Shown here piece after piece: positions 10,491-63,210 of a DNA stretch of 64,000 nt. The notes below the pieces were generated by a model. That model was not told where the DNA came from and did no database searches. It worked only from the letters and a program-made list of their open reading frames with translations. Position numbers and translations under genes: made by a program. The number at the start of each line of letters is the position of its first letter. The first letter of the stretch is position 1. This DNA comes from Amphirosellinia nigrospora (lineage: Eukaryota > Ascomycota > Sordariomycetes > Xylariales > Xylariaceae): the NCBI GenBank assembly GCA_004123355.1, contig SCHM01000001.1:1356001-1420000 (forward strand), in the 5' to 3' direction.

Positions 10491-11024
10491 ATGGGGCAGT
10501 CATTCCAACTCGTTGCCCCTCGGGCTAAACTGACGTTGCCTTGGACGGGTAAACTGGGAGAAATTCTTTTTGATGGTTCAGCAAGAGATCTTGTGTCCCT
10601 CCTAGCTGTTCCAGTCCCACAGCTAGTCCCACATCAAGTCTCACAGCAGCATAATTCGCCTCAAACCCCGTCTATCGACTCGACCGACACTATCTGTAAG
10701 GAGAAGCGAGGAGTCAAGCGTAGCAGGGATGACGACAACGTGCATGTCGGATCCCCGCCATACCACAAGCAGACAAAAGTTCAAACCCGACATGAGAAAA
10801 CGGTTTCGAACAACCGCATTGCCCTTTCTAATCTTCCTCTGAAACTACATCAGCTTATATTTTCCTTCCTCGAGCACATCGAAGACATCATTTCCCTTAG
10901 CATCACGAACCGGTCCTTTTTGTCGACAGGCCGTGAAGGCTTGGAGTATTACTACACATTACATCTCGGGCGGTGGGCTGGTACAAATGTTATCTATGTG
11001 GGCCACGATGTGGAACCAAATGAC
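10491..11024 (+). pseudogene. F-box protein gene, 5' part, cut off by retrotransposon insertion
   Basis: First 178 codons of a fungal F-box protein, a family whose members act as substrate adaptors of SCF ubiquitin ligases. The N-terminus MGQSF..., the block GKLGEILFDGS (residues 20-30), a basic KEKRGVKRSR stretch (70-79, possible nuclear signal) and an F-box at about 110-150 (LPLKLHQLIFSFLEHIEDII then LS.TNRSF) are all visible. The reading frame leaves coding sequence exactly after Asp178: the next codons TGC TAA are the first bases of a retrotransposon LTR. The rest of the protein resumes in frame at 62433. As it stands the fragment would give a 179-residue truncated protein keeping the F-box but lacking the downstream half; whether it is expressed is unknown. 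Confidence 0.9.
11020..11024. other. Left target-site duplication ATGAC of element G
   Basis: ATGAC here is repeated at 62433-62437. Between them lies DNA starting with TG and ending with CA. Removing the insert and one copy restores an uninterrupted F-box reading frame (Asn-Asp then His-Pro-Pro-Gly). Confidence 0.92.
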
Positions 11025-11171
11025 TGCTAAAATGGAAGGTATACAAGCGTACTATTTAGCTATTTAACTATATAATAGAGTAAATAGGATAACCTGTTTA
11101 TATACATAATGGATGCCTTGTACCCTTATATAGTACTTATGGTAACTTTTTAACCTAGTATTATTTTAGTA
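11025..11171 (-). repeat. Left LTR of element G (147 bp)
   Basis: It aligns over its full length without gaps to 62286-62432. All the differences I checked are C/T or G/A transitions, the RIP pattern. The outer end (TGCTAAAATGGAAGG) is less mutated than the matching bases of the right copy, while its inner half is more mutated. Confidence 0.92.
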
Positions 11172-14100
11172 TTCCCGCTTAAAAAAATATTATAAGTTTA
11201 AATAATCTATTTATTTTTATTAATTAATTAACCGAAGATTTATATTATAAATTACGAACTATAAAAGTAAAAAATTTTTATAGTTTTTTATTTATAGCTT
11301 TTATAATTTTTATACTAGTTAGCTATATTAATTATAATCGGGTTATTTATTTTATTAGTTAAATATTTTAAAAATTTATTATTTATTTTTTAACGTTATT
11401 ATTAAATATAAAACGTAGTTTTTTAATATTTAATATAATTTTTTTTTTTGCTTTAAATAATAAAAAAACAGTAGTTTTTATAATTATCGGATTAAATAGT
11501 TATAAAGTTATTAAAATTATATATATTAAGTTTTTATATTATATAACTTTAATAATATTTTTTTAGTAATTTAACTTTTAAATTTATATAATTTATTTTG
11601 TTTAATAAGCTTTTATAAAGTTTTTAAAGTTTTTTTTTTTAAGGTTTTTTTATATATTTTTAAATTATTAAGTTATAAAAATCGCTAAGTTTAGTTATTA
11701 GAAATTATTTTTAGCCCTAACGCTTTTTTAAATTTTTTAAATATTTTTTAAAAAGCGGTTTTATTAATCCGTCCGCTATTATATTTTTTATATAAACTTA
11801 TTTTAGCTATATTATTTTTTGCTTAATTTGTTATAAATAAAATATATTTAAATATTTATATTTATTTTTATTATATTATGTTAAGTTTTTTATAAATATA
11901 ATAAAACTTTAATTATTGCTATAAATAATTATTATATAAGGCTTTTTTAATATTTTTATTGCTTTTTTTTTTTTATAACTAGCGTTTAATTCGCTATATA
12001 ATTATAAAAACTATATTATTTTTTTAGCTATATTAATTATGTTTTAATATTTAGCTTTATATATTAATAGTATTATAGTTTGCTATAATTTAAATAATTA
12101 GTTAATTATACCGCTATTAAAATTAAAAATATATTTTAAAGTTAATTTTTATATATTTAGATTTTTTTTTTAGTTTATATTAGTTTAGCTTATTAAAAAC
12201 TATAATAATTTTAAAAAATAAAATAATAATTTTTTATATTTAATAAATATTTAAAATTCGTTTAATTATTACTTTATAAATAAATATAAAGTTTAAAACG
12301 TAATAACTAATTATTAATACTATATATATAATATTTAATCGAGTTTTTATTATTAAATATATTAATAATTTTACGCTAAATTAATATTTATATTTTTTAT
12401 TTTTTAAATATATTTATTTTAGCTTAGCTTTTTATAGCTTTATTATTATATAAAATATTTATTAGTTTATAATTTTTTAATCTATATTATATAAATATTT
12501 TATTAATATATTTTTATTAATCGAAATATATAGTTTTGTTTGCTTTATTATATTATATATAAATGCTTAAATAATATTAATATAAGCTTAAGTTTATTAT
12601 TTAGAATTTTTATTTAAGATTATTTTAACGTTATTAATTTTAGTTTATTTTTTTTATTATAAATAAATTATTAACGTAATTATAATAAAAATTTTTGTTT
12701 TATCGTTTATAAATATATTATAATTAGTGCTAATTAGCTTATAACTTAATATAATAAAAATTTAAATAATATTTTAAACTAAACTTTTAAAGCTTATTTT
12801 AAGCTATATAAAGCTTTTTTTAGCTTATAAACTTATTTTATACTATTTTTAAATTTATATAGTTATTTAACGTAAATATTTTTTTTATTTTTTATAAAAA
12901 AACGCTATTTTTATATTTATTTATTTTATTTTTAGATTTTAAGCTATTATTATAACGAATAAAATCTTATAGCTTATTAGCTTAATAACCGAAGTAAATA
13001 TTTTAAAATAATCGATATTTTCGATTTATTTGAATTTTTAAATTATTTATTTTGCTTTATAGCGAATAATTTTATTATTAAAGCTATATTTAAATTTATA
13101 TATTTATTTTTTTTAGTACGTATATATTTTTAGTATATATTATTAATATTTAAGTTTTTTTTAACTAGAAATTTAAATTTAATTTTTATTTTTTTAACTA
13201 TTTTTTTTTATTTAAAATTTTAATATTTTTTTTATTATAAAAAGTTTAATTTTATTATTTTATAACTTTAATATAGCTATTAAAGCTAGTATAATATATA
13301 ATATTTAAACTAAATTAAAAAATAAAAGCTAAAAGTTTTTAAATAAATATTTAAGTTTAAATTTATTAAAAACTTTATTAATAATTTTAAAGTTTAATAG
13401 TTTTTTAATAAATAATATAATTTTATTTAAAAAATATAATAAAAAGTTTATAGTTAGATTTATTATAATATTTTAATTAAAAATAATAATATTTTAGCGC
13501 TTTTATTTTATTAGTAAAAATATAAATTTTTTATTTTTATAACTTTATTAGCCGCGTTATTTATTTAAATATTAATAAAAACTATTTATAATATATTAAA
13601 TAATTACGAAATTTTACTAATTATTATAATATTTTATTTAATATTAAAATATATATTTTATTTTATAGTTTTAATAACCTTGCTATTATTAATTATTATT
13701 TTATAAATAAAATTATTATTATATTTAATTAAAATTTTTAATACTAACTTAAAATCTAGTTTTTTTTATTTAATGTTTAAAAATAAATATTATAGTTTAA
13801 TATTAAATATTTTAATATAAAAAATATTAAGTTTTTAACTATAAGCTTTTTTAAAAAATATAATATTAAATATATTATATAAGCTTTTATTATATAAATA
13901 ATTAATAATTACTATAATTTTAAACTAATATTTTAAATTAATAGCGTTTTTTATTATTATAAATAAAAATTTTTCGCGTATTATAATATTAAAACTTTTA
14001 ACTATATTATTATTTTTATATTATTTTATTAATATTATTTAAATATTTATTTTTTTTTATATAGCTTATTTATTAGCGTTTTTTAAAATAAATTCGTTTG

Positions 14101-14919
14101 TTTTATTTACGTATATAATATAATATTTTTGTTTTTATAGTTCGAAATTAGCTAAATTATTAATAAATTTACTAATATATATTTATATATTAGTTTTATT
14201 TTTTATAAGTTTTAATAAATTTAGCTTATTATATATGTTAATTTAAATAAGCTAATATTTTTTTTTATAGCTTTTAATATAAAAAAATCTATAAATATCG
14301 ATAAATATAATTTTTTTTAAATATTTTTTTTCGCGTAGTTTTTTTTATATAGTTTTTTATATATTTATTTAAAAATATAAAGTTTATAAATATAATAACT
14401 TTAAACGTTATTTATTTTTATACGATTTTTTTTAACTTTAATAATAATTTTCCGCTAAAATAGCTTATTTATTTATATTATAACTTTATAAATAAATTTA
14501 TTATATATATTATTAAAGCTAATAATATTATTCGGGTTATTTTTAGTATAAATAAGTTTTTAAATTATATTATTTAGATCGTAATATTTTTTAAAAAAAA
14601 AATTAAATATAATATCGTTTTTTCGTTAAAAATATTAGTGCTTTTTATTAAAAAATTAAATAACTAAAATAAAATTAACTTTTAATTTTAATATATATAA
14701 AACGTTAGTAAAAATAATTTTAATATAATTATTTTTTATAATATATTTTTAATTAAATTTTTTTGTTTTATTATAAGTATTTTTATTTTTTTAATATTTA
14801 TAATAATAATTTTTTTTAAAATAAGCTTTTTATAATTAATTAGCTTATTTTTGTTTTATATAATATATTAAACGTAGCTTAAATTTAATATTTAGATTTG
14901 CTATAAAAAATAATATTTT
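11172..14919 (-). other. Internal segment of element G, RIP-degraded
   Basis: The segment is 3.7 kb of AT-saturated sequence with almost no C or G on either strand and stops in all frames. The + strand is T-rich, suggesting that the former coding strand was the minus strand. It would hold the 3' portion of the ancient pol region if the orientation is right; no residues can be identified. Confidence 0.6.
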
Positions 14920-15135
14920 TGCTACACTTTAATAAGGGGGTGACCCCCGCAGGGGGTCCCTACTGCAGAGTGGAGCTTATTTTACTAATAAGTGGAGTTT
15001 AGTCCTGTAGATTAGATAAGGAAGCTAAGGACTAGGTAAATCTTCTGCTTTTAGTAGGAGCTTTACTTAGTATTTGTTTTTTTTTTATTATTTAATATAA
15101 ACTTAATATTATATTATTTTTAATAAAGCTTATTA
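14920..15135. repeat. Left LTR of element C (216 bp), partly spared by RIP
   Basis: The LTR starts TGCTACAC and contains alternating G and C runs (GGGGGTGACCCCCGCAGGGG from 14936) that can form two mutually exclusive hairpins. GC content in 14920-15070 is far above the surroundings. It matches 39035-39250 with mainly C/T and G/A differences. Confidence 0.85.
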
Positions 15136-15878
15136 AATAGTACGGTAAATTTTATAATTTTTGTTTTTTAAATTATTTTAGTTTTGTTTTTTTCGGCCGG
15201 TAGTTTATTTATATAGCTACTTTTAATCGTTTTAATAATATTTCGCACCGTTTTATAATTTTTATAGTATTTTAAAAATGCTTAAACTTTGCGCTAGTTT
15301 GTTTTATATCGATTTATATTTTAGTAAAATAAAAAAAGCTTAAAAAAGTTTATATTAACGTTATTTTATATCGATTTATATTTTAATAAAATAATAAAAA
15401 CGCAAAATACTTTAATATTTATTTATTTAAAAAAAACTACGTTATTATTTTATAATTTTATATAGTTTAAATAAAATATAATAATATTAATTTTTAATAA
15501 TTTATATCGAATGGATTAGTTTTTAGTTTAATATTAACGTTATAATTTTTAATATTACGCCGATTTAATTATAACTAAATATTTATGTTTTAATATTATT
15601 TTTAAAATAGCTTTATTATTTTTGTACTAATTATATCTAATTAAAGCCGATATTTATAATAATATGTTATTATTTTATAACTTTAGTTATATTATATTTT
15701 AATTTTTTATACGTTATTTTATAACTTTTATAAAAAAACTAATTATTTATTTTTATTATAATTTATTATTATTTAATAATTTTAGTAAATTTAGCAAAAC
15801 TATTTATTTATATTATATTTTAAATTATTATATAATTTATTATTTTTCGGTATAAAAATATAAATTATAATAATGATA
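15136..15878. other. Internal segment of element C
   Basis: The segment is 743 bp of RIP-degraded, AT-saturated sequence between the C left LTR and nested element A. No coding content survives. Confidence 0.6.
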
Positions 15879-16092
15879 TAGATCTTTAAAGGGAGTGGCA
15901 GGCTTGAACTACCACCCTTTGTGTATGGTTTGTGCGTAAGGGCCTGGTAGGCCGTCAGGCCTGCTAGCTAACTAGCAGCTGCTATATAAAACTTATAAAA
16001 GTAAATTTTGTAGCCGCGCCTATAAAATCTGCATTTAAAGTTTTTATTTTTAAATATTATAGTTATACTTTATTAAAAGTTTTTTTTAAATA
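15879..16092. repeat. Left LTR of element A, largely un-mutated core
   Basis: The core at about 15890-16020 keeps G and C while the partner at 23360-23571 has A or T at the same places. It contains the perfect stem CTGCTAG/CTAGCAG with a 4-nt loop and the sequence GGCCTGGTAGGCC. Being the better-preserved copy, it approximates the ancestral LTR. Confidence 0.88.
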
Positions 16093-19000
16093 GTACTTTT
16101 ATTATTTTATTGTAAAAACTATTATTATTATTTTAATTATTTTTATAATATTATTTTTTAAAGTTAAAAAGCTTTTTTATTCTGCTGGTATTTTCTTACG
16201 TAATTATATTATTGTATAATAATAATCGTTAATAATTTTTAGCTTTTATTTTAGTAAGCAAATATATTTATTATAAGCAAATTTATTAAAATTTATTTTA
16301 ATTTTTTTATTTATTATTTATTTTATTTTATTTACTACTTTTTATAAAAGCTTAGTAATAATGAATATTTAATATTTTATAATTTTTGCTTTATAATTAT
16401 TTAATTATATTTTAATATTATTTATAAAAAATTTAAATATTTAACCGAATAATATATAAACGTTATAGTTTTTTTTATTAATACTGAATTTAAATATATA
16501 TTAAAATATTTTATTTTTTGCTTTGTTTAAAAATTAATTAAGTTTAAATAAACTGTTTAAAATTTTAAGCTTTATTAATTTTAACTATATTATATTTATA
16601 TTTATAAATTAATAAAATTTAAATAAACTATTTAAAATTTATATTTTATTAATTTAATATTTATTTTTTAATTATTTTATTTTATAATTATTTTACTATT
16701 AAAGTACTAAAGTATTAATTATTATTATATTTTTAAAATAATTAAATTTTTTATTTATTTTAATATTTATTTAAATAACTTTATAAAAGTTTAAAATAGC
16801 CAACTAAAAAAAACTTAGCTACTTTTAAAAAATATCTTATTTAATAATAGCTAATAAATAAAAATAAAAACTTTAAAATAGCTTAGCTTAGTTAACTTAA
16901 AAAGTTTATAAATAATAAAAAATTAATAAAATATTTAAAAATAAAATTAATAATAGTTTATATATTATTAATAAAAAAATTAAAAATATTAAAAAACTAT
17001 GTAATTTATTAATAATACTATTTAAATATTCTTCGATTTTTAACGAACTATTTAAAATATTTTTATTAATTTTATTTAATACTATATTTAATTAGCGTAC
17101 TTTTTATAATATAAAAATACTTAGCAAAATAAAAAATAAAAAATATTTAAAAAAAGCAATTATAATACTTAAAACGCCTAAGCAAATACGTATAATAAAT
17201 ATTTTAAATAACCTAAACTCTTTAAACTTATTGGACTTTAATATAATAATAATAATAATAATAGCTTTAAAAAAAAACTTATACTTAACTTTAGTTATAA
17301 ACGAATACTAAAATTAATTATTATTAATAATAAATTATATAAAATTAAATATAAAAATATTAGTTTATTTAACTTTAAATATAATAACCTTAATAATATT
17401 AACGTAGTTACTAATAAAAAAAACTTAATTTTATTAATATTTATTTTTTTTTAATTATATTAAATTATTCTTAAAAAATTTTATTTAAATATTTTATATA
17501 AAATATAACTTTTAAATATATTTTAAATATTATTTATTAATCTTGCTATATTTTAATAAATAATAAAATAACCTTAAAATATTATTATAAATTATAAACA
17601 AAAAATTAAAAAAATATTTAAAAAACTTTAAACTTAATTTATTTTTAATATAATATAACTATTTAATATTTAAACAAATAATGTTTATATTTAAAAATAT
17701 AAAATATAATTAATATAAGTTGCTATAGTTTATTTAATATAAACTATAATATATAAAAGCTATAAAAATACTTGCGTAAAATAATTTTAATTAAAAAAAT
17801 ATTATAACCTAAATATATAATAGTATATTTTTAAAAGTTAAATAATTCGTATAATTATTTTATAAAAATTAAACTTTTAAAAAATATATATATTTTATCG
17901 AAAAAACTAAAAAAAACTTAAATAATATAACGTATAAAATACTTAACAATCGCGCTTTTAATAGTTCTTATTATATTAATAAATTATTATGCTTAAAATC
18001 TCGATAATTTAAAAAATACTATATATAACGATTAAATAAAAATATAATATATTAAATAATAATATATTAATATATTACGCTATAATAACGCTATATTTAT
18101 TTCGAAAACTAGTTATATAGCTATAATTATAATAAATATATTCGCTTTTACAATAATAGCAAAAAAAAACATAATAATAACTAATAATAATAAACGTAAT
18201 AATAAAAATAATAATTAGCAAAATAATCGATAAAATAATTAGCAAAATAATAATTAATAAAAAAAATAATAATAACTTAATAATAATAAATATTAAACGT
18301 TATAATATAAAAAAAAAAATAACTATTAAAATCGTATATATTTTTTTAAACTTTTAAATAATAATAATAATAATAAAATAGCCCTTAAAATAGCTTAAAT
18401 AATAATAGCAATAAAAACGTCGAAAATAAAAACTTATTATTTTACGTACTAAACTTAAAACTAATATATTATTAATATAACGAATAATTTAACGATATTG
18501 CAAATAAACTTAAATATTAACGTATATATTATACTAATATTACTATCGAAAAACTTTATAATAAATCTTTTATTAACTTAATTAAATATATTTATAAATA
18601 CTATAATAAAACATTTTTTTTTTATAATTTTTTTAAACATATTATTTATTATAAATAAACCTAAAAAATATTATTATAAATTATGCTATTATATTAAATA
18701 AATCTATACTAAAAACATAAATAAAAAACAAATAAAAAAATCAAAGCTAATAAAAACTAAAATACTAAATAAAATATATTTATTTTTAATATATTTAAAA
18801 TAGATATAAAAAATAATGCTTTATTTTTAAGCTATTTATTTTTGCTTTAAAATTAACCTTTATTTAAAAATAATAATTTAAAATATATATTAATCCGGGT
18901 ATTAAACATATTATTATTAATTATTTATTTTTAAAATATTTAACCTATATAATAATTTTTCGCTAAAATAATTTTAAAAAACTAGCGAAAAAAAATACGA

Positions 19001-22000
19001 ATAAAAAAATAAGCTAAATTTAAATTTTTTTACTAAAAAATAAATATAAAAAAAAAACTTAAAATTTATTACTTCGTTAAAAAAAATAAATAATTAATAA
19101 TAAATTAAAACTTAATTTTTAATTAATAATAATTCTTTTTATTTTATAAAGCTACGATTAAATATTTAAATTATAGTATAATTTTTATTTAGTTTAATTT
19201 TATATTAAAATTTAAAGCTTAAAGCTAAGGTTATAAATATATATAATAAATAATAAATATAAAAATTAATACTTTAATAAAAAAAACAACGTATATATAT
19301 AATTAATTATAAACTATTACTTATTAACCGTAACTTTTATTTTATAACAATAAACTTAATATTATATATATTATAATTAGCGCAAAAATTTTATATATTA
19401 TATTAATAAAAATATAACCGACCGTATAATAATACTAAATAAAAATATTAAAATAAGCTATATTTATAAAAAAAAAATATAACAAGTTTATAGCTATATT
19501 TTAAAAAAACGTAATAAAAACTTCGCATTAATAGTAGCTATAATAAAAGCTATATATAGCGGATTAGCTAATAATATTTACTTATATTACAAGTACTTAG
19601 TTGTATAATATAATACTTTTAAATATAAAATTTAATATAACGCTAATAATAACTATAATTATAACCGATATAATATTAGCGCATAATAATTAAACTATAA
19701 ATAATTTAGTTAATATAATTACTAATTACTTTAAAGTATTTACGTTAAAAACGCCACTTTTAAATACTATATTTAATATTATATATAAAATCTTTTAGTT
19801 AATCTAATTAATATATTTAATTATATATTTAACCTAATAATATTTATAAATATAATACCTATTAAAAATCTAGAACTATTTAACGCGTTAATTAAACTAT
19901 TTTTATAATATTTATTATATTTAAATTAAACTAAAAATTAAAATATACTTAATTTTTAATATTAAAAAGCTAACTAATATATTAAAATAAATAACTAAAA
20001 AAGTATATATATATATAAAATATTTTTATTAACCGATAAACTTTATAAAATTATTTTAATATATAATATATAAAAAAATAAAATATAATTAATATATTTA
20101 AAATTAATAAATAAAAATTCTATTAATAAAAATTAGCAAAATATTAAATTAAATTTAAATTATATCTATTAAATAACTAAAATTAAAAATTATTAAATAA
20201 AATATATAATAAACTATATAAAAAAATAAAATAAAATAAGTTAATAAATTTATATTTTTTACCTATTTATTATTTATTATATAATAATCCGCGTATAATA
20301 AAAATAAAAGCTAATTATAATAAACTAAAAGCTTTTAACTAAGTTATAATTTTTAATTATTATTTATTTTTATTATAAGCTAATATTATCGGTTTATTAA
20401 AAATAAAAAATTTATAATATTATTAATACTACTAATTTTTCTACTAATTTAAAATATATTTAAATTTTTATAACTAATTTATAATAATTAATAAATATAA
20501 CTTAAAATAATTAACTATAACGCTAATAAAATTCTATAATTTATTAATATATATATATAGTTTATAAATAAACTATTAATTAATTATAAATATTATTATA
20601 AAGTTTTTATTAATAATATTATAATATTTTTAAATACGGCTAAAAAATATAAAAAATATTTATATATAATTTTTTATTATTTTAAAAAAAAAAATTTTAA
20701 TATCGCCTAAAAAATTATTTATCGGATATTTATTAGTTAAACTATTAAGCTTTTATATAAACGCGCTTAATATAATTATAACTAAAAAACGATTAATAAT
20801 ATTTAAAAATTTAGCATTTTTATAATAATTAAAAGTTTTTAAATAATATATTAGTACTATTAGTTTTTAAAAAAACTAATTTTATATTTTACTTAAATAA
20901 TAAAACTTTTATAAAAATAAAAAATAGCACTATTAATAAAAAGCAAAAAAAAAAATAAAATAATAATAAATAATCTTAAAAAACGTAAAACATATTATTA
21001 AACAATATTATAATTTAATACTAGCTAAAATTATATCGTTTAAAGCAATATAAAACGCGATTTATAAAAAAATAATATTATTTTATTATAACTTTATATA
21101 TATTTTATACTTTTAAATTAATATTTATAAAATGTAAATTTAATATAATAATATTTTATTTAAATTTAAAAAATAAATACTAGGCAATAAAATCTTAAAT
21201 ATTATAATATAACTAATTATATATTTTAATTACTACTTTTTAAATATAAAAACAAAATATATTTTCGGAATTAAAAATAGCTTATTTATTTAATTAGCAA
21301 AAAAATTATAAATAATAATTAAATTAAACTAAAAAATAATAATTTAATAAATATTTTAATAAAAAATATTATAAATTAAACTAAACTAAATATTTTAACT
21401 ATTAATCGCGCGAATATTTAACTAATTAATTTATTATATTATTTATTATAATATAAATTATAAGTTTATTATTTTTAAAACGTTTTAATTTTATACTAAA
21501 TATATTTAATCGCTTAAAAATAATAACAAATATATATAACTAAAATAAAAAGCTAACCTAAACTAATAATTTTATTATTTTAAATATTATTTATTATATA
21601 TAACTAAAACTATTATAAACAATAAAATAACTATAAAATTTAAATAAGCTTATAAAAATAATTTTAAGTTCGCTAAAATTTTTTAAATATTAAAAACCTA
21701 ATAAAAACGTTAAATTTTTTTTAAGCCTAGCTATTTTTTTAAAATATATAATAGTTTTATTTATAATAACTATAATAAAATATATTATTTTTATATTTTA
21801 TATAATATAATTAAAAAATTTATATTTTTTATATATAATAATAAATATTATTTTAATATATAGCGTATATTATAAAAACTAAAGCTTTATTAAATCTATT
21901 ATAAAATATATTTTATTAAAAAATATATTAAACATTATTATAGCTATAACGTAAATAAAATAAATAAATAATTATTAATAAAAAATCTATTATTTATTAA

Positions 22001-23359: not shown

Positions 23360-23571
23360 TAAATCTTTAAAAAAATAGCAAGCTTAAACTACTACCCTTT
23401 ATATATAGTTTATACGCAAGGGCCTAATAAGCCGTTAAGCTTACTAGCTAACTAGTAGCTACTATATAAACCTATAAAAGTAAATCTATAGCCGCGCTTA
23501 TAAAATCTATATTTAAAGTTCTTTATTTTTAAATATTATAGTTATACCTTATTAAAAGTTTTTTTTAAATA
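23360..23571. repeat. Right LTR of element A
   Basis: It aligns to 15879-16092 almost end to end, with mostly A for G and T for C at the differing positions. The GC core is heavily mutated here. Confidence 0.88.

Positions 23572-26113: not shown

Positions 26114-26117
<4 letters not shown>

Positions 26118-26145
<28 letters not shown>
26118..26145. repeat. Poly-T tract inside B1 (28 T)
   Basis: An uninterrupted T run followed by ACGCGCG and a TA-rich microsatellite. The same tract occurs at the matching place in B2 (43185-43209), so it is a family feature and not an assembly artefact. Confidence 0.85.
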
Positions 26146-26147
<2 letters not shown>

Positions 26148-49543: not shown

Positions 49544-49824
49544 TATTAAATAGCTAAAAAATAATATTATATATAATAATAAATAAAATAAATATTAATA
49601 TATATTAATTTATTTTTTTTAACTATTTATATAAAGCTAGGCTTTTATATAGAGAATTTTTTATACGAAAAAAATTTTGCTACAGCATATATATAACTAA
49701 ATCGGGCGGATATATTAGCCCGATTTTATTATATAAACAACTAATACTATAATTAATAATTAGCTATCGTACGTAATTAACACCGATATATTAACTCCGT
49801 ATATAATAATACTACAATATAATA
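49544..49824 (-). repeat. Right LTR of B2
   Basis: It begins TATTAAATAGCT and ends TAATA just before the AAAAC duplication. It keeps blocks such as TCGGGCGGATATATTAGCCC that are partly mutated in the other copies. Confidence 0.9.
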
Positions 49825-49829
49825 AAAAC

Positions 49830-52800
49830 TAATATTATTAAAAAATCGGTTTTAATTTTTATTATAAATTATAATTGAAATTTTTAATAAAAAAAACGTA
49901 TTAAAGCTTTTTTAAATTAATAAAATAACTTTTTATATTTTTTAGTTTATATAAAAATACGTTTTTTATATTAATTAGTTTAAAAGCATAATAATAAAAC
50001 TTTAAATATTAATAAAGTTTTAATAAAAGTATAAAATTTTAAAAAAATTATACGTTTTAACTAATATAAAAAATTTTTTATTTTAATATAATATTAATTT
50101 TAATAAAATTACTTAAATTTTTTTAATAAATTAATAATATAAAAACTTAGTTTTTATAATATAAAATTTAGATTTTTTTAAATTAATTTATAATCCGGTT
50201 TAAATTAATCGTTTTAATATATAATATATATAAATAATATATTTTTTTATTATTTTTAAATAAATAATATATTAATATAAATATATAAAAATCGTTTAAA
50301 AAATTAAATAATATATTATTAATTATATTAAAATATTAAAAATTTATTAAAAAACTAAATAATAATATTAATAATTAATATATATATTTTATATAAAATA
50401 TTATATAATTTTTATTTTTAAATAGTATATAAATATAATTAAATATTTATTATATATTAAATTAAGTAAAATTTTCGTTTTATTAATATAAGCTAAAATT
50501 TTTTTAATAAAAAAAATAAATATTAATTTTTTTTTATAATTTTATTTAATTTATAATAATTTATATAAAAATAAAGCTTATTATTTATTTTTTTTATAAA
50601 TAAATAAATATATTATATAAATATTATTAAATTTAATAAAACTTTTATATAAATTTTTAACTAAAAATTTTTATATAGTTTTTAATTTATTAAATAATAT
50701 TTATATAAAAAGTTATAGCTTAAATTAGTTTAAATTTACTTTTAAAAACTTTATTTTATAGTTTATTTATAAATAATATAATAAAATATATTAAAATTAA
50801 TTCGGCTAAAAACGCGTATTAAATTTTAATATTTTTTAAGTATTTTTTTTATGCTTTTTATTTTAATTTTTATTTTTTTTTTCTAAAAATCGTTTTTATT
50901 TTTTAATTTTTAATTATTTTATTAATTTATTAATACTAATAATATAAACGTTTTTATTTATTTTTTTTTTTTATTATATTAAAAATAATTATATTTAAGC
51001 TAAATATTTTAATTATTATTTTTATATTAATTAATATTATTTTATTTTATATAATAAAAACTTTTTTAATTAAACTTTTAAATAAAAATTAAAATTATAT
51101 TTTTTATAAAAAATATAGCTTATATTTTTTAAAAATAAATTCTAGCAAAAATTAATTAAATATTATTATTTTATTTTATTAAAGTTTTTTTATACTAAAT
51201 TATTATATTTTAAAATAAATATTTTTAGTTTTTCGTTTTTTAAATATTATTTTGTTATTTTTTATTATTATTAATATTATATTTTTCGATTTTAAAATTA
51301 TAGTTTTATTAATTAATATTAAATTAATAAGCTAAATATTATAATTATATATTTATTTATTATTATTAAATAATATTTTATTTATAATTAAAAAATAATT
51401 AAAATAAAAATATTAAATAGTTTTATTAATAATTTAATAAAATATAATATTTAAATTATAATTTATTTAAAATAATATTATAAATTAAATTAATAATAGT
51501 TATAAATTTATTTTTAAAAAATTTTTTATATATTTTAATAATAATAAAAAACTTAATTAATATTTTTTTTATTTTTATTATTATATTTTATAATTTTTTA
51601 ATAAAAAAATCTATATAATAATAAAATTAAATAGTTTAATAATTTTTTAATAAATTATTAGTTTATGTTTATATATATATTTATTTTTATATTTTTAAAA
51701 AATTATTTATAATTAAAAAAAGTTTATTATTATATAAAATATAAATATATAATAAAGGTTTTTTATTTAAGTATTTTTTATTAGATTTATTTTATAATTA
51801 ATAATATTTTTTAAAATATTTTTTTTAAAAAAAAGCTATTTTTTTTAAAATTATTTTTTTTTTTTATATTTATTAAAAGTTTATTTTTTTATATATTAAC
51901 TAGCTTAATATTTAATATATTATATAGCTAAAATAATAATAATTTAAGCTTTTTTATTTATTAAAGTTTAATTTTTTAAAAAATATTTTTTCGAAATAAT
52001 TTTTATTAATAATAATTAAAATATTTATTATTAAAAATTAAATTATATTTTATTAATATTAAGTTTAAATAATTAAATAGAATTATTATTATTATTATTA
52101 TTTAATTTTAAAATAAAATAAAAATTATTCGAATAAAAAAAAAAAAAAAAAAATAAAAGTTATAATAAATTTTTATATTTTTTTTTTATAAATTTTATTT
52201 TATTTATAATTAGTTATTATTAAATAATAAACTATTTAAAAATAATATTTTATATAAATATTAAAATTAATATTTTTTTTAAATATTTTAATATAGCTTT
52301 AATTATTAATTAAAAAAATAGTTTATTTTTAAACTTTTTTTTTTATTTAGTTTTATTAAGTTTAATTTTATTAATTAAACGGATAAAAATAGTTTAAAAT
52401 TTTAAAAATTTAATTAATATATATTAATTAAAACTAAAAAATTAAAAATTAATTTTAGTTTTTTTATTATAATTAACGTTAATATAAATTTTTTTAAAAT
52501 ATTTTAAAATAGCTTTTAAATTAATAAATATATTAAAATAATCGGATAAAAAATAAAAAAAAAAATTATTAGCTATATAACTTTTAATATAAGTTTTAAT
52601 ATTAGCTATTTTAGTTATATTATTATAAAACTAATTAATATTAAATTTAAAGCGATTTTATATAGTTCGAATTTATATTTTAAACTTAAGTTTATTTTTA
52701 GTTATATTATTATAAAAAATAAATATTAATATTTTAATTATATATTAGTTATTTTTTTTATTATTTAATAAAATAAAAATTATTTTATAATAATTTAATA

Positions 52801-53682
52801 AATTAATTATTTATTAGTTTAAAATATTTAAATTATTTTAAGCGTAATTATATTATTTAGTTATTTTTTATAGTTTATTTAATAATTAATTAATAGTTTA
52901 TTAATTAGTTTATTATTAGCTAAAATTATTTTTAATTATAAGTTAAAAAATATTAATAATATATATTAATATAATATATATTTATTAAAAAATAATAATT
53001 TTATTTTATTTTTTTATTTAATTAAGTAAAACTTTATTTTATTTATTTAATTTTTTAGCAAATATATATAAATTAATAATAAAATAATAATAAATTATTA
53101 AAAAAATATATATTTTATTTTTTAAAAAATAATAATAAATTTTTATATATATTATATATTAGTTTAATTTATTTTAATTAAAATTAAACTAGATTATTTT
53201 ATTATAATATATTATTAGTTTAAAATAAAAGCTAAATTTAACGTTTTTTATTTATAGTTTTATATAATTATTAGCTAAATATTAAATTATTTAATTAAAA
53301 TTAATAATATTTATATTAAATTTTTATTTTTTAAATATATAATTATTAATAATATTATAAAACTATTATATTAAATTAATTAAAAATAATTAGTTTTTAT
53401 AGCTTATTATTATAATTTTTGCGTAGTTTAAAAAGCTAAAATAAATATATTTTTTATTATTTATTAAAATTTCGTTATAAAAAGTTTATTATTTCGAACA
53501 TTTAAAACAAACAAATCTAAAATATTAATAAAAGCTTTAATATATATAGCTATACGCGTTTATTATTTTAATTCTTTTTAAAAAATATTTTAATATTTTT
53601 AAATTAAATTAATCGTTTAATTTAGTTAAAAAATATTATAAAAATAATCTTAATATTATAATATTATAAATAATTTATAAAT
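49830..53682 (-). other. Internal segment of element D, right part
   Basis: The segment is 3.9 kb of AT-saturated sequence after B2, up to the right LTR of D. No coding content can be read. Confidence 0.55.
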
Positions 53683-53973
53683 AATTACGCTTTATATATT
53701 TAAAAAAATAAAGCTTTAAATATATATATATTATATATAAATTTATAATAAAAAATAAAAAAAAAAAAGTCTAAATTTATATATAAATAACTGTTTAAAT
53801 ACTTATATAAAATAGCTATATTTACTACTAATGCCTGCTTTTATTTATTGCAACTATATTTATTACGAATAACAATCACGCATTTATTGCAAATAAAGAT
53901 TACTACAAGTAAAAATTACAGGTGTTATGGCTAGTAATGGGGCATAGCCATTAAAGCTTATAGATTTATAACT
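53683..53973 (-). repeat. Right LTR of element D (291 bp)
   Basis: Partner of 40001-40291. Its right third (about 53860-53965) keeps more G and C than the left copy, for example GTTATGGCTAGTAATGGGGC, and gives the better view of the ancestral LTR. Confidence 0.82.
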
Positions 53974-53978
53974 TTAAT

Positions 53979-54485
53979 AAATTATTTATTTTAAAAAAAA
54001 ATAATTGTTTTTTTATAAAACTTTTTATTTATTTAGTTAAATATTTCGGAAATTATTATATTATATAAAAACATAAGTTTAATATATAATTTAAATTATT
54101 TTTTATTAATAATATATTTTTCATTAAAAAGTTTTTTATTTTATTTTTAGTATTAAAATATTTTTTTTTTTTTTTTAATAATTTATCCGGAATAAGTTTA
54201 TAAGCGTTATAAGCTTTTAATAAATTATTATATTAAAATATTATTTATAATAGTTTTTTTAATTTTTAGTTTTATAAAAATTTAATTTTTATAACGTTTA
54301 TATTAATTTTAAATATTTAATAATATTAACGTTTATTATATTAAAGTTATTTATAATAGCTATAATTAAATTATTGTTTTTTTATTTAATAAATATATTA
54401 ATAATATATAAATTAAATAATAAAAAAATTACTATAGATTTAAAATAATTAATAGTTATAAAAAATTTAACTTTAATAATTATAA
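53979..54485 (-). other. Internal segment of element G
   Basis: About 0.5 kb of RIP-degraded DNA between nested elements D and E, assigned to G by position. Confidence 0.5.
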
Positions 54486-54490: not shown

Positions 54491-54802
54491 TGTGGAAATG
54501 GTGTTAATACTAGGGTAATACTAGGTTGGTTGGCTTAATTATTATATTTATGCTATTATATATTTTTTATCTTCTAGTTATAAACTAAGTAAGCTATTCT
54601 TTTATTAAATATTAGAGAATTTGCCTAAGCAGCTATAGCAGCCTAATATTCTTTTTATCCGCGTAAAAAGGGCTTTTTTTACGTATATTATGTAATATTT
54701 AGCGTATATAAAACTATGTACTATTATGCTATATAGCTACTTAAGCACTAGTAATTATATAATTTATTACTAGGCTAATTAAATATTAGATTTATATTAA
54801 TA
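54491..54802 (-). repeat. Left LTR of element E (312 bp)
   Basis: Its first 40 bases are well preserved (TGTGGAAATGGTGTTAATAC against TATAAAAATAATATTAATAC in the right copy, G-to-A only). The rest is more mutated than the right copy. Confidence 0.9.
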
Positions 54803-57800
54803 TTTTTTTTAGCTATAAATATTATAATATTATAAGCTTTAAAAAAAAAAATAATAAAAACTTTAAATTAATTTAGTACTATAATTAAACTTTTTTTTTA
54901 TAACTAAAAATATATAATTAATTAATTAAACTAAATATAATATTTATATATATATAAACTATATATTTTGTTTTAAAACAGATTTATTTTTTTATTTAGT
55001 TTAAAATTGCTATTTATAAATATTTTATTACTACTATAATTTTAGTATAATTTTTATTTATTTTAAAGTTTAAAAAAAAAACTTTTAAAATATTTTATTT
55101 TTTATAAAGTATATAAAATAAAATAGCATTATTTTTTTATACTTATTTAGGTATTTATTAAATAAGCAACTAGATAACGTTATTTTTTTAAGATTTTAAA
55201 CTTTTTTAAATTTAAACTTTTAAAACTTTTTTAAATCTAAAAAATAAATAAAAATATTAGTTATTTTTAGCTAAATATTATTTTTTTAATATTTAATAAG
55301 CTTATTAATTATATAATAAAATAAATTAAATTAATTATATATAATCTATAAGTTTTAAAATATTATAAGTATTAAAACATTAAGTTAATTATTTTTTAAA
55401 AAATTAATATTTTAGTAATTTTTTTTTTAATAGTAATAAATAAGCTTAAGCTATTAATTATTTATTATATAAAGTTTTAAAAAAGTTTAGTTTTATTTTT
55501 TTTTATTAATTTTTTAATTTATAAATTAAATAAAAATAAAAACTTTTAATGTTTAGCTTTTTTTAATAGTTTAATTAACCTATTAATTAAATTATTTTTT
55601 AATTTTATATATATTAATTTAATATAGTTAGCTTATACTTTTTAATTAATATAATAATATATTATTTTATATATTTTTTTTATTTTAATATAGCTATATA
55701 TTTAAATTAACTTATAGCTTTTATATTATTATATAAAAAATAATAAAATTATTTAATAATATTTTAAGTTTATTTAAAAAGTTTTTTATTTATGCTAAAT
55801 CGCTTATTATTTTATTTATTATAATATATTTATTTTTAATAAAGTTTTTTATTATAACTAACTATAGTTTAAAATATTATAATATTAGCGCTTATTTAAA
55901 AATATAATATATTTATTAATAATTTATTATTTTATAAGTTTAATATTAAATAATATTAATAATAACGAATAAACTTATATTATTATAAATTTTATATAAA
56001 TAGCTTTTTTTTAGTTTATTATATTTAATTTATATATTTAAAGTATTTTTATATATTTAATTAATTATTTTATATTTTTAATATATTTATTAAAAGATTT
56101 ACTATAAATTTTGCTTAAATAAAAATAATAAAGTTTATATTAAGCTTTATAATTTAAATAAAAAAACTTAACTTATTAAATAAAAAAGTATAATTAAATA
56201 TTTTTTTTAAAATAAGTTTTTTTTATATTTTATAATATAAGTTATTTTTTTAATATTTATAAATATAAATATTTATATATTAAATTTAAACTAATAAATT
56301 TAATATTTTAATTATATATTATTTTTAATTAAAGCTTATTATTATTAATTTTATTTTTTACGATTTATATACTTAAAAACTAGTTATTTTAGCTTAAATT
56401 ATTTATTAAAATTATTTTATTAATTTTTATAGCAATATTTTTTAAATAATTTAAGTTTTATAATTAAAAAATTATTTATATAAAATATTATAACTTTTTT
56501 TATTTTATATTAATATATATAATATTATTAAAAATTATAAGCTTAAATTTAATTTTATTTATAATTTTTTAGTTTTAATTTTTATTTATATTTTAATTAT
56601 TTAAAGCTATATAAAAGTTTTATTAATTTAATAATTTTTTAACTAGCTAGTTATATTTTTTTTGTTTTAATTTAAAAGTTTTAAAGTATTTTTTTAATAT
56701 TTTAAACTATTTTATAAATATTTTTTTATAAAAAGCTCCGTTAAAATATACTATTATAAAATCGATTTAAAATATATTATTTTTAAATAGCTATTAAAGC
56801 TATTAAAATTTTTTATAATATTATTTAGGCCGTAAAAAAAAATTTTATTATAATTAATATTTTATATTAAAAAATTTATAAATATAAATTTTAGCTTTAT
56901 ATTTATTTAATTTATTAATTAATAAATATTTTTTTTTAAATATTTATATAAAATTAATAAAATAGCTATAAATAGCTTTTATACGTTTTATAAATTTTAA
57001 ATATTATGTTTAAATAAACTATATTTTTTTAAATATAGCTTTAAGTTATTTTTTTTAATTTTTTTTATAAATATTTTTTTTAAAATAAGTTTATTAAAAA
57101 TAAATATTTTTATTATAAATTTTTTTAGTAATTTTTATAAATAATTTATATAAAAACAGCTTTTTAAAAATATAATAGTAATTTAATCTATTTAATTTAG
57201 TTTTTATAAGCTATAAATATTATATTAATTTTTAAGTTTTAAATTTATTTATTTTACCTTTATATTTTAAATCGCTTATAAAATTACTTATATATATATT
57301 TTTATTTTTTTTAGCTTAATATATATTTAAAATATAAATTATATTAAAATAATTTTTGTTTATTTTATATAGTAAATATAAACTTTTAACTAAGTTTTTT
57401 TAAAGTTTTTTTTTATTACGCTTAATAATAAAAATTAGTTTTATTGTTATTTTTACGGTTAGCTACGTTTTTTTAGTTCGTTTTTATTATTTATAATATT
57501 ATTTTAATAATATTATAATTATAGTTTATATTTAAATAAAATTTTTAATTTTTTAAAACGTTATTTAAATTTACGCATATTTTAAAAATAATAACATATA
57601 ATATTTTTAAAATTATAAACGTTATTATATTTTTAATATTTTTATAAAAAGTTATATAAATATATATAATATTTATATTTTAGTAAGTTAAACTATATTA
57701 ATAATATATTTTATAATCTAAAAATTAAATTAGCTTTTTTATTTTATTTTTTAGCTAATATATATATAAATTTATTAATAAATATATATAACGTATATTA

Positions 57801-60800
57801 TTATTTATAAATTATTAAAATTAAGTTTATTATTTTTTTTTAATTAAATAATTAAAATATTTTTTAGCTAAAGTTATTTTTTTTATATAAATTAATTTTT
57901 TTAAAAATATATATATATTATTAAAATTTATATATTTAAAATATAATTATAATTTAGTTTATAAAAATAAAGCTTTAGTTTTATTTTAAATAAAATTTAT
58001 TAATTTTTTAATTATCTATTTTAATATTAATTTATAATAATAAAATAATAATAGTTATTTTTATTCGTTATAAAATACTTTTAAATCTTTTATACCGAAC
58101 TTTTTATTATTATTTATATATAAAACGTAATATTTTTTTTAGTAATTTTTTTAATTAAAATATTTAAAATATTAATTTTTATTTATTTATTATAATATAT
58201 TTTAATAGTACTTTTATTTATTTTTTATTTTATATGCTTTAAAAATATAATATTTATATATTATTTACTATAAATAAAAAATATTTATATTTTTCGATTA
58301 AAATTAATTTTATTTAACTAAAGTTTATTTAAATTATTTTTTTAAATAATTAGCTTTTTTAATAGTTTTTTTAAATATATTTTTAGCTTTAGTTTAATTA
58401 TAAATAAAATAAAAAAAATATTTAACTTTTTTAAACTTTATATTAATATTTATAATATATTTAATTATTTATATTAACTTTTTAATATTAAAATAATATA
58501 GCTAAGTATAAAAAAATTAGTTTATTTTAAATTTTAAAATTATTTTTATTTTTTTTTTAATAATAATTTAAATAATAACTTTTTTAACGTTTTAATTTTA
58601 TTTGCTATATTTAGCGCGAATTTTTATAGCTTTTTTTAAAATTAATATATTATATAAACCTTTTTTTTTTTATATATTTATAAAAAAAAACTATACTATT
58701 AAATATTAAAATTATAATAGTGTTTTATAGCTATTTTTTATAATATATTTATTTAAATAACTTTTTATTTTATATAGTTATTTTTTTAAAAATATATTTA
58801 ATAAAAACAATAAAATAAATAAAATATATTTTACGTTTATATTATATTTATTTTTATTAAAAGTTTTAAAGTTCTTTATAATAGTGCTAATTTTTTATTT
58901 ATATAAGTTTATTTTTTATATAAACTATATATTTTTTTTTTTTTAGTTAAATTTATTATTAATTTTTTTCGAAGTTAGCTTTATTATTATATATTTTTAT
59001 ATTTAATTTTATATTAAATAAAATATAACGCTTATATATTAAAATATAATAATTTTTTAAATATAAATATGCTTAAAAATATTACTTTTTTTATATAATA
59101 ATTTAATATTTAGTCCGTTATTATTAATAATTTTAATATTTAGTACGTTTTTTAACTTAAGTTATTTAAAATTGCTATTAAAAACAAAATATAAAAATAA
59201 ATATAGTTAAAAGTATTATATAGTTTTTTGTTTAATAATTAGTTTAATAATTAGTTTTAAATTATTTTTAGATTTATTACTACTAAAACTAATTTTTATT
59301 TAATAAAAAATTATTATTTTTAATTAATAAATAATTTATTATAGTAAATAAGTCATAGTTATTTTTTTTTTTATAAAAAAGTTTATAATAATTTTTTTTA
59401 TAAATAAATCCGCCGTTATTTTTTTTAGCCTAATATAATTATTAAAACTAAAGCTATTTTTTAAGTTAGGATTTTTAGGTTAAAATTTCTTAAGTTAAAG
59501 TTTTTTAAATTAAAATCTCTTAAATTAAAGTTTTTTAAATTAAGGTTTTTTAAGCTATAATAACCTTTTAGCTTAAAATTATTTTATATAACGTAGTTTT
59601 ATTTATAATTAATAATATTATAGTTATTTAAAATAAAAAAAAATAAACTAAATATAATAAAAAAAAAAAATAATATTTTATAATTATAAAAATTTATTAA
59701 ATTTTATAAAATATTTATATTTATATAAACAAAATAACTAAAATTATCTTTAAAGCTTATAAATAGCCTTTAATTTTTTATAAGTTTATTATAAATATTA
59801 TAAATTTTTAATTATTTAAAGTTTTAATGCTAGTTGTTATTATTTTTATTAAAGTAATTTTTAGCAATATAACCTTATTAGCTGTACTTAAAGCATTTAA
59901 GCTTTTTTTTTTATTATAATTTTTTTTTTAAAGTTAAATTTAAAATTTAACTTATAATTTTTATTTTTATTATTATTTTTATTATAATTTTTATTTTATT
60001 AATAATATTATTATTAAACTTTTTTTTTTATAGTTTTTTAATTTAGGCTTTTTTTTTATATAGTTTATAAAATTATTATTAAATTTATTAATTAAATTTT
60101 AAATATAGCATTTTTTATACTTTATAACTTTAATAATAAAATTATATTAAGCTATTATTTTATTTTTTATTATAGCTATAAATATTATAATTTATTAGTT
60201 TATATTTATTTTTTTTTTAGTTTTTATATTATTTATATTTTTAAAAATTTAAATATAAAAAATACTAGATTTTTTTATTATATTTATAATTAATAATATT
60301 GTTTTATATATTTTTTAATATATTTAACTATTATATTATAAGTTTTACTAAAAATTTTTAGTATATATAATTTTTTTTAATATTTTTAATTAAATTTAAA
60401 AAAGCTAGTTTTAACGTACTAATAATTATTTATATTAGTATTAGTTTTTTATATAAACTAATAAAATTTTTAAAATTATATTTAATAGTTTTTATAGTAA
60501 AATATAAATTATATTAATATATTAATTAGTTTTAAGCTTTTTTTAAGTAATTTTTTTATTAAACTTTAGCTTAAATTTATACTATTTTAATTTAGTTTTA
60601 TTTATAAATAAAAGCTTTTTTAAGTTTTTCTATAATAAATAATATTATATTTAATATAAATATTATTAGATTTTTTTAAATCTAACGATAATAATAATAA
60701 TAATAAATTTAGGTTTAAATTTAAAATAAAAGTAATTTTCTTTTTTTTTATTTTTAGATTTTTTTTTAATAAAATTATACTTTGGTTTTTTTTTTTTAAA

Positions 60801-61383
60801 ATTAATCGATTTAAATTTTTTAAAAGATTTATTTATTTTTTTTACCGTTTTATTTAAAAAGTTTAATACTTTTTAATTATTTTTTTAATAATATTATTTA
60901 TTATTAAATATTTCGAATATATTTTATTAGCTAGATTAATTTAATTAATTAAATTAATTAAATTAATTAGAACTAATTTTTTATTTAATTTGCTTAATTT
61001 TTTTAAGTTATTAATAATTTTATTAAATTTATTTTTTATAAGTTTTATTTATATTTATAATTAATAAATTATTTTTTAATTTTTTTTTAAAGTTTTTAAT
61101 AACTTTATTATATTTTTTTTTTTAGTATAGTTTATTTTTATATATTTTAAAATTATATATTATTATTTTTAATTATTATTAAGCGTTAATTTATTAATTA
61201 ATTATTTTATTAAGTAAATATTAATATTTTATTATTTTAATTTTAGATTTATAATAACTTTTTTTAACTTTTTTTTAATTAATATTTATTAATTAAACGA
61301 TTAAATTAATAACCGGAAATAATTAAAATACATTAATTAAACGTTTTAAAAGTCGATTAATCGTAAAAATATACTAGCTACTA
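54803..61383 (-). other. Internal region of element E, RIP-degraded
   Basis: The region is 6.6 kb of AT-saturated sequence. A small run of diverged short direct repeats built on TTTTTTAA(A/G)TTAA(A/G) lies at about 59460-59560. No reading frame survives. Confidence 0.6.
59460..59560. repeat. Short imperfect tandem repeat inside E
   Basis: Units of roughly 18-20 bases of the form TTAAATTAAAGTTTTTTAAA and variants follow each other about five times. They differ by C/T and G/A, suggesting a tandem array later altered by RIP. Confidence 0.5.
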
Positions 61384-61702
61384 TATAAAAATAATATTAA
61401 TACTAAAAAGCAATATTAAATTAGTTAGCTTAATTAATATATTCGTACTATTATATACTTTTTGTTTTTTAGTTATAAATTAAATAAGCTATTTTTTTAC
61501 TAAATACTAGAGAATCTACCTAAGTAGCTATAGTAGCCTAACATTCCTTTTATCCCGCGTAGAAAGGGCTCTTTCCACGCGTGCCGCGCAGTATCCAGCG
61601 CACATACAAAGCCACGTACCACTATGCCACACAGCCACCCAGGCACCAATAATTACGTAATCCATCACTGGGCCAATCAGGTACTAGATCTATATGCTGA
61701 CA
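61384..61702 (-). repeat. Right LTR of element E (319 bp), right half spared by RIP
   Basis: Bases from about 61545 to 61702 have normal composition and keep many CpA sites (for example CCACACAGCCACCCAGGCAC), while the matching part of the left LTR and the first half of this LTR are converted. It ends GCTGACA at the ATTTT duplication. Confidence 0.9.
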
Positions 61703-61707: not shown

Positions 61708-62285
61708 TAAAAATATTAATTTATTTTTTAAAATTTAAATTATTAAAAAAATTAATTTTTATTAGTTTTTATTAAAATTTATAATAGCTAGTTTTATATA
61801 TTTTAATTTAAAAGCTAAAAATTTTTCGGTTATTAAGCATAAATAATATATTTATATTATTAAAATCGAGCTAATAATTATTAATTTTTTTAAATAAGTT
61901 TATATAAAAAAAGTTTTTTTTATTTTTTTTTTATAAATTATTATATTATTAATTAGATTTTTTTATTAAATATAAAAAATTATTAATAGCGAATAATTTT
62001 TAAATAATAATAAATAAAATTATTTATTTTTTATTTTTTTATTATATATTAATTAAATTTTTATTATAATTATTTTTAATTAATATTATAAAATAAAATA
62101 AATAATAAAAATAATTTTTTTTTTAGCGTAAAATTTATATTTATTTATACTATATTTAATATTTTATTATTTTTAGTCCGATATATATTTAAGCTTAAGT
62201 TTATATTTTAATTAATTAATTTAAAAATTATAAATAAAATATTTAGCTAGTTATTTTAGTAAAAAAAATTTCCGGGCTTATAACC
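61708..62285 (-). other. Internal segment of element G, next to its right LTR
   Basis: RIP-degraded 0.58 kb. Just before the LTR the minus strand reads GGTTATAAGCCCGG, placed where a tRNA primer-binding site would be for a minus-sense element; the resemblance is suggestive only. Confidence 0.5.
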
Positions 62286-62432
62286 TACTAAAATAAAAAA
62301 TATACAAGCGTACTATTTAGCTACTTAACTATATAATAAAGTAAGTGGGATGACCTGTTTATATACACGATGGATGCCTTGTGCCCTTGTATAGTACCTG
62401 TGGTGACTCCTTGACCTAGTATTACTTCAGCA
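62286..62432 (-). repeat. Right LTR of element G (147 bp)
   Basis: Gap-free partner of 11025-11171, ending TTACTTCAGCA directly before the second ATGAC. The half next to the F-box fragment is nearly free of RIP changes, whereas the half facing the island is strongly converted. Confidence 0.92.
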
Positions 62433-62437
62433 ATGAC
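62433..62437. other. Right target-site duplication ATGAC of element G
   Basis: Second copy of the 5-bp duplication at 11020-11024, marking the right end of the 51.4-kb insertion. Confidence 0.92.
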
Positions 62438-63210
62438 CACCCCCCTGGCCTGTTTTCAAACGAAGAACTCGAGGTTCTACGCCAGAAGACGACCGACATA
62501 CCGGATGACTGGGTGTATCCCGATGAGGGAGCTGTTCGGAACGAGCCCTTTACTCTCGAGCATTTCACATTTCCAAGTGTGTCTAGGACAGAGAAGCTCG
62601 AGACCGATCTTGACAGCATAACATCCCGGTTGAAGGGTCGCTGTACCCGACGAGGCATATCTGAGGACCCTGCGTATTCCCATATAAAACAATACTTTTG
62701 GTTCACAAACGAGGCCCACTTTCCCACGGATCAGCAGTGGATTCTCCGAAATTTGACTACGAAGCAGATAGTTCGTTCTGACGCCATTGCCCTATCACCT
62801 GCTTATATCAAGGGCCCTAGAATTCACGTCTTGGGGTTCGGCGAAGTTGTCATGTCGCGCATCTGCTGGTCAACATCCGACTGTGTCAGTATGAAGGATA
62901 CAACTAATATCTCGAGGGGAGTATGGGCAGGTCACTGTTTTGATATTACTACACTTTCAAGACATGAGGTTGAGACCCACGGGGAGGAGTGGAGCGATGT
63001 GAGCGAAGAGGTTGCAAAAGAGATCGCCGGCATCTGGGAAAGCGAGTACGGCGCTAATTGGCGTGATATTTATTTGCAAGAGCTACCGGGCGTGGCACTA
63101 CTGACACCTTCATCCACGCTCTGGAGACCGAAGACGGAAACAAGAAGTATGCCTGCAACCCATACGACCTGGAGGATGGGGAGGTTTTAATGGCCAGCTC
63201 GATATGGTAG
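62433..63210 (+). pseudogene. F-box protein gene, 3' part, with added frameshifts
   Basis: From the second ATGAC the frame continues as HPPGLFSNEELEVLRQKTTD and runs open to 63190. It covers the conserved downstream half of this fungal F-box family (DDWVYPDEG, NEPFTLEHFTFPSVSRTEK, RIHVLGFGEVVMSRICW, HCFDITTL). With the 5' part, the uninterrupted gene would encode about 428 residues in this frame. Near the end the frame is broken: the tail T-D-T-F-I-H-A-L-E-T-E-D-G-N-K-K and NPYDLEDGEVLMASSIW, ending at TAG 63208-63210, is in a different frame, so small indels (best explained as two single-base gains between about 63065 and 63095) occurred. The fragment has no start of its own and is inferred to be non-functional. 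Confidence 0.88.

Follow-up and report, generated by a model that had tools for sequence, protein, structure and literature searches.

An F-box gene of Amphirosellinia nigrospora is split by an AT-rich island that appears to have grown inside one LTR retrotransposon

A 64,000-bp stretch of the ascomycete Amphirosellinia nigrospora (assembly GCA_004123355.1, contig SCHM01000001.1, positions 1,356,001 to 1,420,000 of the forward strand; this whole stretch is referred to here as “the window”) contains an F-box gene whose reading frame is split by a 51.4-kb AT-rich island. The frame runs from 10491 to the end of codon 178 at 11024 and continues in frame at 62438; the F-box lies in the left half, where the match to the Pfam profile is marginal (PF00646, E 0.00032, 20.9 bits against a cut-off of 20.5). 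The parts of the two halves that served as search queries, 178 and 219 codons long, contain no stop codon. At each edge of the island is a long terminal repeat (LTR) of 147 bp, the distance from LTR to LTR is 51,408 bp, and the two repeats differ at 23 of 147 sites, every difference being a transition and none a gap. The same 5 bp, ATGAC, stand at both junctions, the outer LTR ends are an intact TG...CA, and the inner ends now read TA, a change of the type expected from repeat-induced point mutation (RIP). At the left junction the G+C content falls from 0.49 (500 bp outside) to 0.12 just inside; at the right junction the corresponding values are 0.51 and 0.17. As read from the sequence, the split frame stops one codon inside the LTR; the 179 codons that stay open include the F-box but not the remainder of the protein. 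The original prediction for this locus had described the exact frame continuity, the shared 5 bp, and the equal LTR lengths as they are found here, and its TG...CA is true of the outer ends. The split that it placed between 10491 and 63210 is likewise borne out, but the right-hand end of that span was wrong: the frame stops at 63190, and the stop at 63208-63210 belongs to a different frame.

Each half of the gene was used as a separate query on the genome from which the window comes (48 Mb in 11 contigs). The left half gave six matches, namely itself, four at two paralogs, and a weak one elsewhere (E 0.2), and the six matches of the right half were itself and five at the same two paralogs. In both places, C4:10.3196-10.3207 Mb (locus L021) and C1:1.8476-1.8489 Mb, the half-matches are adjacent and in order. 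The joined protein aligns with the C4 paralog (357 aa, 44.8%) in one frame and without a gap at the junction, where PND-HPPGLFS in the window corresponds to PDD-FPPGLFS. Because the C1 paralog has stops inside the matched stretches and the C4 paralog has a frame change near its end relative to the window copy, the F-box gene family may be dispensable in this genome. A frame shift considered near 63090 in the second half was dropped; neither paralog matched the tail past that point.

The contents of the island were aligned with a sister copy of the bounding element, here called the founder. This sister, L024, is 5,877 bp long, carries the duplication GAAAC, and is the shortest of the family's LTR pairs examined; a further copy, L023 (7,657 bp), is the same element plus approximately 1.8 kb. 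In an alignment in which transitions were nearly free and transversions costly (score threshold 45, with a reversed control), the sister was found in the island as four pieces, on one strand and in order, and complete except for a few bases at the breaks (Table 1). This strict scoring gave no further match at 45 or above, whichever strand was read, and none in the reversed control. Over 5,801 aligned bases, the four pieces differ from the sister by 793 transitions, 19 transversions, and 89 small gaps. Self-comparison of the nonfounder DNA of the island revealed LTR pairs for three insertions and for three elements nested in them, plus a lone LTR. The original prediction held that one insertion broke the gene and that the island grew inside it; the same paralogs lying side by side and a founder that is whole in four collinear pieces both uphold this, as do the 5-bp duplications of the LTR family described below.

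By its sister copy, the founder is classed as a Copia-type LTR retrotransposon. A genome search with the Copia reverse transcriptase profile (Pfam RVT_2) gave 18 matches in all, including two pieces in L024 (C6:3588463-3588980; 35.8 and 34.8 bits, cut-off 31.6) and none in the window copy of the founder. A search for integrase (rve) gave 10 genome matches, none of them in the sister copy or elsewhere in the family; the coding sequence is too degraded to show whether integrase precedes reverse transcriptase. The reverse transcriptase match of L024 lies on the strand opposite to the orientation assigned to the element, so minus is the expected coding strand in the window, and a putative primer-binding site and a putative purine tract would agree with this. 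The putative primer site complements the anticodon stem-loop of this genome's tRNA-Met(CAT) genes over 13 bases in L059 and, both in L024 and in the window, over 14 bases of which one is changed. A 15-base tRNA pattern had no match in the genome. A 13-base pattern occurred at seven places, compared with four in the reversed control, and each of the two places that were looked at more closely was called as tRNA-Met(CAT). Locus L059 (contig C9) was rejected as a full copy of the element, being an end fragment of ∼155 bp. At L059 ∼178-380, the end fragment (LTR and primer-binding site) runs directly into sequence resembling a tRNA start, where ARAGORN called no tRNA.

Table 1. Features of the split F-box gene and the island within the window (positions are those of the window)
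Feature	Positions	Strand	Basis or remark
F-box gene, first 178 codons with F-box domain	10491..11024	+	Open frame, Pfam PF00646, paralogs
Target-site duplication ATGAC, left copy	11020..11024		Sequence comparison
147-bp LTR, left (3' LTR if coding strand is minus)	11025..11171	-	LTR comparison, RIP ramp
Founder piece 1 (sister 1-3917)	11025..14919	-	Strand by the sister's reverse-transcriptase match
Putative polypurine tract, purine-rich, beside left LTR	11172..11180	-	Reverse complement AAGCGGGAA
Insertion 1, ∼24.3 kb	14920..39250		LTRs of ∼217 bp at 14920-15136 and 39035-39251; flanks ATTTT / ATTTA (4/5)
LTR-paired element nested in insertion 1	15878..23573		LTRs 15878-16094 and 23359-23573
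LTR-paired element nested in insertion 1	25502..32689		LTRs 25502-25797 and 32418-32689; family shared with 42550-49842
Lone LTR of the 25502-32689 family	34796..35098		Self-comparison; G+C 26%
Founder piece 2 (sister 3924-4669)	39260..40006	-	Sister alignment
Insertion 2, ∼14.0 kb, chromodomain Gypsy	40007..53973	-	LTRs 40007-40291 and 53689-53973; outer edges approximate
LTR-paired element nested in insertion 2	42550..49842		Self-comparison
Founder piece 3 (sister 4664-5174)	53980..54482	-	Sister alignment
Insertion 3, 7.2 kb, TG...CA	54491..61702		Exact ATTTT flanks, 54486-54490 and 61703-61707
Founder piece 4 (sister 5182-5877), ends in right LTR	61720..62432	-	Sister alignment
Putative primer-binding site	62272..62285	-	Complement of tRNA-Met(CAT) anticodon stem-loop, one RIP-type change
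147-bp LTR, right (5' LTR if coding strand is minus)	62286..62432	-	LTR comparison
Target-site duplication ATGAC, right copy	62433..62437		Sequence comparison
F-box gene, second part, in frame	62438..63190	+	Stop at 63188-63190; open frame, paralogs

The G+C content of the island is about 10% overall (4.9-15.9% per 2 kb), and its separate stretches range from 6.6 to 16.9%, with the lone LTR as the exception. Insertion 2 has a relative in L070, a chromodomain Gypsy locus that carries few mutations and has the domains RVT_1, RNase H, H2C2, rve, and Chromo. Over 4,492 aligned bases, 1,955 of 2,319 G:C pairs (84%) are changed in insertion 2, alongside 59 transversions and 20 reverse transitions, a pattern such as strong RIP would make. 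By context, the changes affect 567 of 601 CpA sites (94%), 465 of 568 CpT (82%), 472 of 577 CpG (82%), and 451 of 573 CpC (79%); the preference for CpA is present and weak, in one element only and near saturation. Gypsy frames compared with the sister element by tBLASTn gave weak matches only (best E 2.4). The seven LTR pairs of the island together show 303 transitions, 3 transversions, and 40 gaps.

Within the LTRs of the founder family, the level of RIP-type change depends on position. With one high-GC solo LTR (L031) as the reference and G:C sites counted in 15-bp bins, changes in the left LTRs (n = 8) number 1 of 48 in the outermost 15 bp and climb with each bin inward, reaching 25 of 40 in the last one; in the right LTRs (n = 7), the corresponding counts are 1 of 35 and 22 of 40. 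At the outer ends RIP is therefore down to 2-3%, and solo LTRs (7 of 28 used, L031 among them) show 0-5% per bin. RIP thus weakens over ∼100 bp toward the end of the shared sequence; this ramp is observed directly, and its mechanism would be the one that the known behavior of RIP suggests. Acting on shared sequence and fading over the outer ∼100 bp, RIP would have spared the gene halves, which keep 49 and 51% G+C. A limited literature search found no related report of RIP fading toward the border of a shared stretch, which is no proof of absence.

To place the window pair within its family, 50 LTR copies were examined with their flanks, drawn from scoring 40 of 65 and 40 of 68 candidates, a choice that favors unmutated copies. 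They comprise 28 solo LTRs, 16 LTRs in eight pairs, and six single ends or truncated copies. Duplications of the listed solo LTRs are exact over 5 bp in 24 of 28, differ by one transition in three, and are mismatched in one; two of the 28, L040 and L042, have identical flanks. LTRs were paired on the basis of contig, strand, and order, and the pairing was not blind to the duplications; seven of the eight listed pairs have exact 5-bp duplications, at spacings of 5,877, 7,657, 12,535, 30,281, 47,753, 51,408, and 81,434 bp. Of the large blocks outside the window, the 12.5-kb one is on contig C4, the 30.3-kb one on C6, and those of 47.8 and 81.4 kb on C5. Six of these seven exceed the 5.88-kb unit, by up to 14-fold, and the interiors of two of the six are resolved; apart from the window pair, interiors were read for the 5.9- and 7.7-kb pairs only. 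The eighth pair (75,988 bp) is flanked by TTAAT and CTGAT, a mismatch at two sites that RIP could explain, both differences being of RIP type. When the flanks of the seven pairs were joined, the longest frame across the junction was 465 codons at the F-box site, 317 at L023, 214 at the C6 pair, and 34-59 at the other four. At L023 (972-1615 and 9278-9584), the downstream part has a weak match, below cut-off, to pyridoxal-dependent decarboxylase (19.6 bits against 27) and the upstream part has no Pfam match; at the C6 pair, one flank has a Pfam match below cut-off and the other has no match. That these two pairs also interrupt genes is suggestive only.

All three F-box genes are located near this LTR family, which may be due to chance. 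A 26-bp match to the LTR end (L021:7208-7233) lies ∼0.5 kb upstream of the C4 paralog, a solo LTR (C4:10330281-10330425) is ∼10 kb from it, and the C1 paralog is ∼4 kb from the L023 element copy (loci L022 and L023).

Considering these results together, we are nearly certain that a founder insertion, nested growth, and RIP produced this locus. The two halves are listed as distinct open frames of 179 and 225 aa and might have been separate genes that flank an AT-rich block by chance; however, they hit the same two paralogs, adjacent and ordered, and L021 runs through in one frame with a gap-free junction. Together with the exact ATGAC on both sides, this leaves chance flanking with hardly any credibility. 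A misassembly that joined gene halves to a repeat deserves thought because large AT-rich repeats are hard to assemble and the locus was judged from the assembled sequence. It is nevertheless very unlikely, given a founder that is complete and collinear across the island, a matching duplication, and exact duplications at six further LTR pairs of this family.

One giant nonautonomous element inserted at full size would also leave a single LTR pair and a single duplication with 51.4 kb between them. Such an element is barely conceivable here, as the sister copies measure 5.9 and 7.7 kb, the pair spacings vary from 5.9 to 81 kb, and the DNA between the four pieces of the 5.88-kb founder has LTR pairs of its own. 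The lack of a stop in either half (178 codons, and the 219 queried codons of the second) would further suit a gene that still works because the island is removed from its transcript or from the genome. The frame nonetheless stops one codon into the LTR, and we know of no fungal intron of such length; with stops in the C1 paralog and a frame change in the C4 paralog relative to the window, loss may be tolerated. We consider continued function highly improbable.

Several points weigh against the combination of founder insertion, nested growth, and RIP. Looser scoring produced weak extra founder matches on both strands, among them three minus-strand matches (scores 91-107; 82-84% when transitions are disregarded), all gone under strict scoring, and the scoring may itself turn some transversions into gaps, as the 89 gaps could reflect. 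The edges of insertion 2 are not base-exact, the duplication of insertion 1 agrees at four of five bases, 5-base flank matches are weak evidence in DNA so AT-rich, and ∼9 kb of the insertion 1 body has no reference match and was assigned by LTR pairing alone. The ramp in the right LTRs is uneven (0.55, 0.10, 0.33, 0.13, 0.07, 0.05, and 0.03 from the innermost bin), and some of the changes counted relative to the one LTR used as reference may reflect variation among subfamilies. The window founder offers no protein match of its own for the Copia class, and the empty site is deduced from the paralogs and the duplication in the one genome examined.

We conclude that an ∼5.88-kb Copia-type LTR retrotransposon inserted after codon 178 of the F-box gene, producing the ATGAC duplication seen at both junctions. 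As the founder pieces and LTR pairs show, three later elements entered the founder and others entered those, adding ∼45.5 kb. RIP, C to T on both strands, then or in between bleached the island DNA, and by fading across the outer ∼100 bp of the LTR it would have spared the gene halves near 50% G+C. At this locus an AT-rich block can be traced, with its layers resolved, to one identifiable insertion in a coding frame, and the founder is distinguished from what was added later. With spacings from 5.9 to 81 kb, the family's seven LTR pairs make up a size series that could serve to study island growth, and the LTR edges are a readable record of the reach of RIP along shared sequence. More broadly, a single Copia family might be the recurrent founder of AT-rich islands, its RIPped copies becoming heterochromatic landing pads that steer in chromodomain Gypsy and other elements while the outer ∼100 bp of the LTR insulates genes. 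We regard this wider scheme as doubtful, and its recurrent-founder and steering components exceed the evidence, since the interiors read among the other six pairs are just those of the 5.9- and 7.7-kb copies. For the founder or seeding idea, a limited literature search, no proof of absence, returned nothing closer than PMC5915480 and PMC4522978.

Nested LTR-based islands and gene-splitting transposable elements (TEs) are already known in fungi, and this case is a clean, layered example; the comparisons here draw on parts of the cited papers. In Zymoseptoria tritici (Mycosphaerella graminicola), 78 nested TE clusters of 7.5-63 kb are described, 49 of them LTR-based and 35 of these with verified duplications, including a 47-kb cluster with a TGGAA duplication (PMC4522978). 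The original prediction had presented a base-exact origin for a large AT-rich block as rare, a view not supported in light of those 35 clusters and of the seven LTR pairs with exact duplications in the present genome, this one included. The Zymoseptoria clusters share with this island an LTR base, verified duplications (4-6 bp there), multilevel nesting, and low GC; here, however, the base element lies inside a coding frame, and a gene split by the base is not reported in the cluster section of that paper (PMC4522978). In Pyrenophora teres, TE fissuring opens AT-rich isochores in syntenic DNA, and nine genes are interrupted by TEs, with insertions of 169-6,514 bp as opposed to 51.4 kb with resolved nesting here (PMC5915480). 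Large RIP-affected regions have a mean G+C content of 14.9% in Fusarium poae, 15.6% in Trichoderma reesei, and 15.2% in Z. tritici, which are genome means, whereas our 4.9-15.9% per 2 kb describes one island (PMC7882544). For the crapaud LTRs of Podospora, RIP is found in the LTRs of full copies and solo LTRs are mostly spared, as here, where the RIP level is also traced along the LTR and drops outward (PMC10787394). The primer-binding site of the FunCo1 clade of fungal Copia elements complements an internal tRNA region, as the putative site of the present element would, and GalEa elements are without one (PMC5445492). A Copia family of F. poae, in the part of the table considered, differs in size (4,900 bp, with 195-bp LTRs) and is thus not the founder element (PMC4994206).

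In F. poae, RIPped TEs are found on core chromosomes and intact TEs on extra chromosomes (PMC4994206), which the element spread on contigs C9, C10, and C11 recalls. These contigs make up 2.9 of 48.1 Mb and hold 20 of the 28 listed solo LTRs, none of the eight LTR pairs, and 25 of 41 RVT_1 matches, 16 of the 25 being without stops versus 9 of 16 elsewhere. The two solo LTRs with identical flanks lie in opposite orientation near both ends of C9 (L042, C9:1082-1230; L040, C9:1315916-1316064), so that the C9 ends are inverted duplicates, either real or made by the assembly. Upstream of the F-box gene in the window are open frames at 7814-8602, which matches Pfam p450, and at 9072-9545, which looks like a continuation of the p450 frame.

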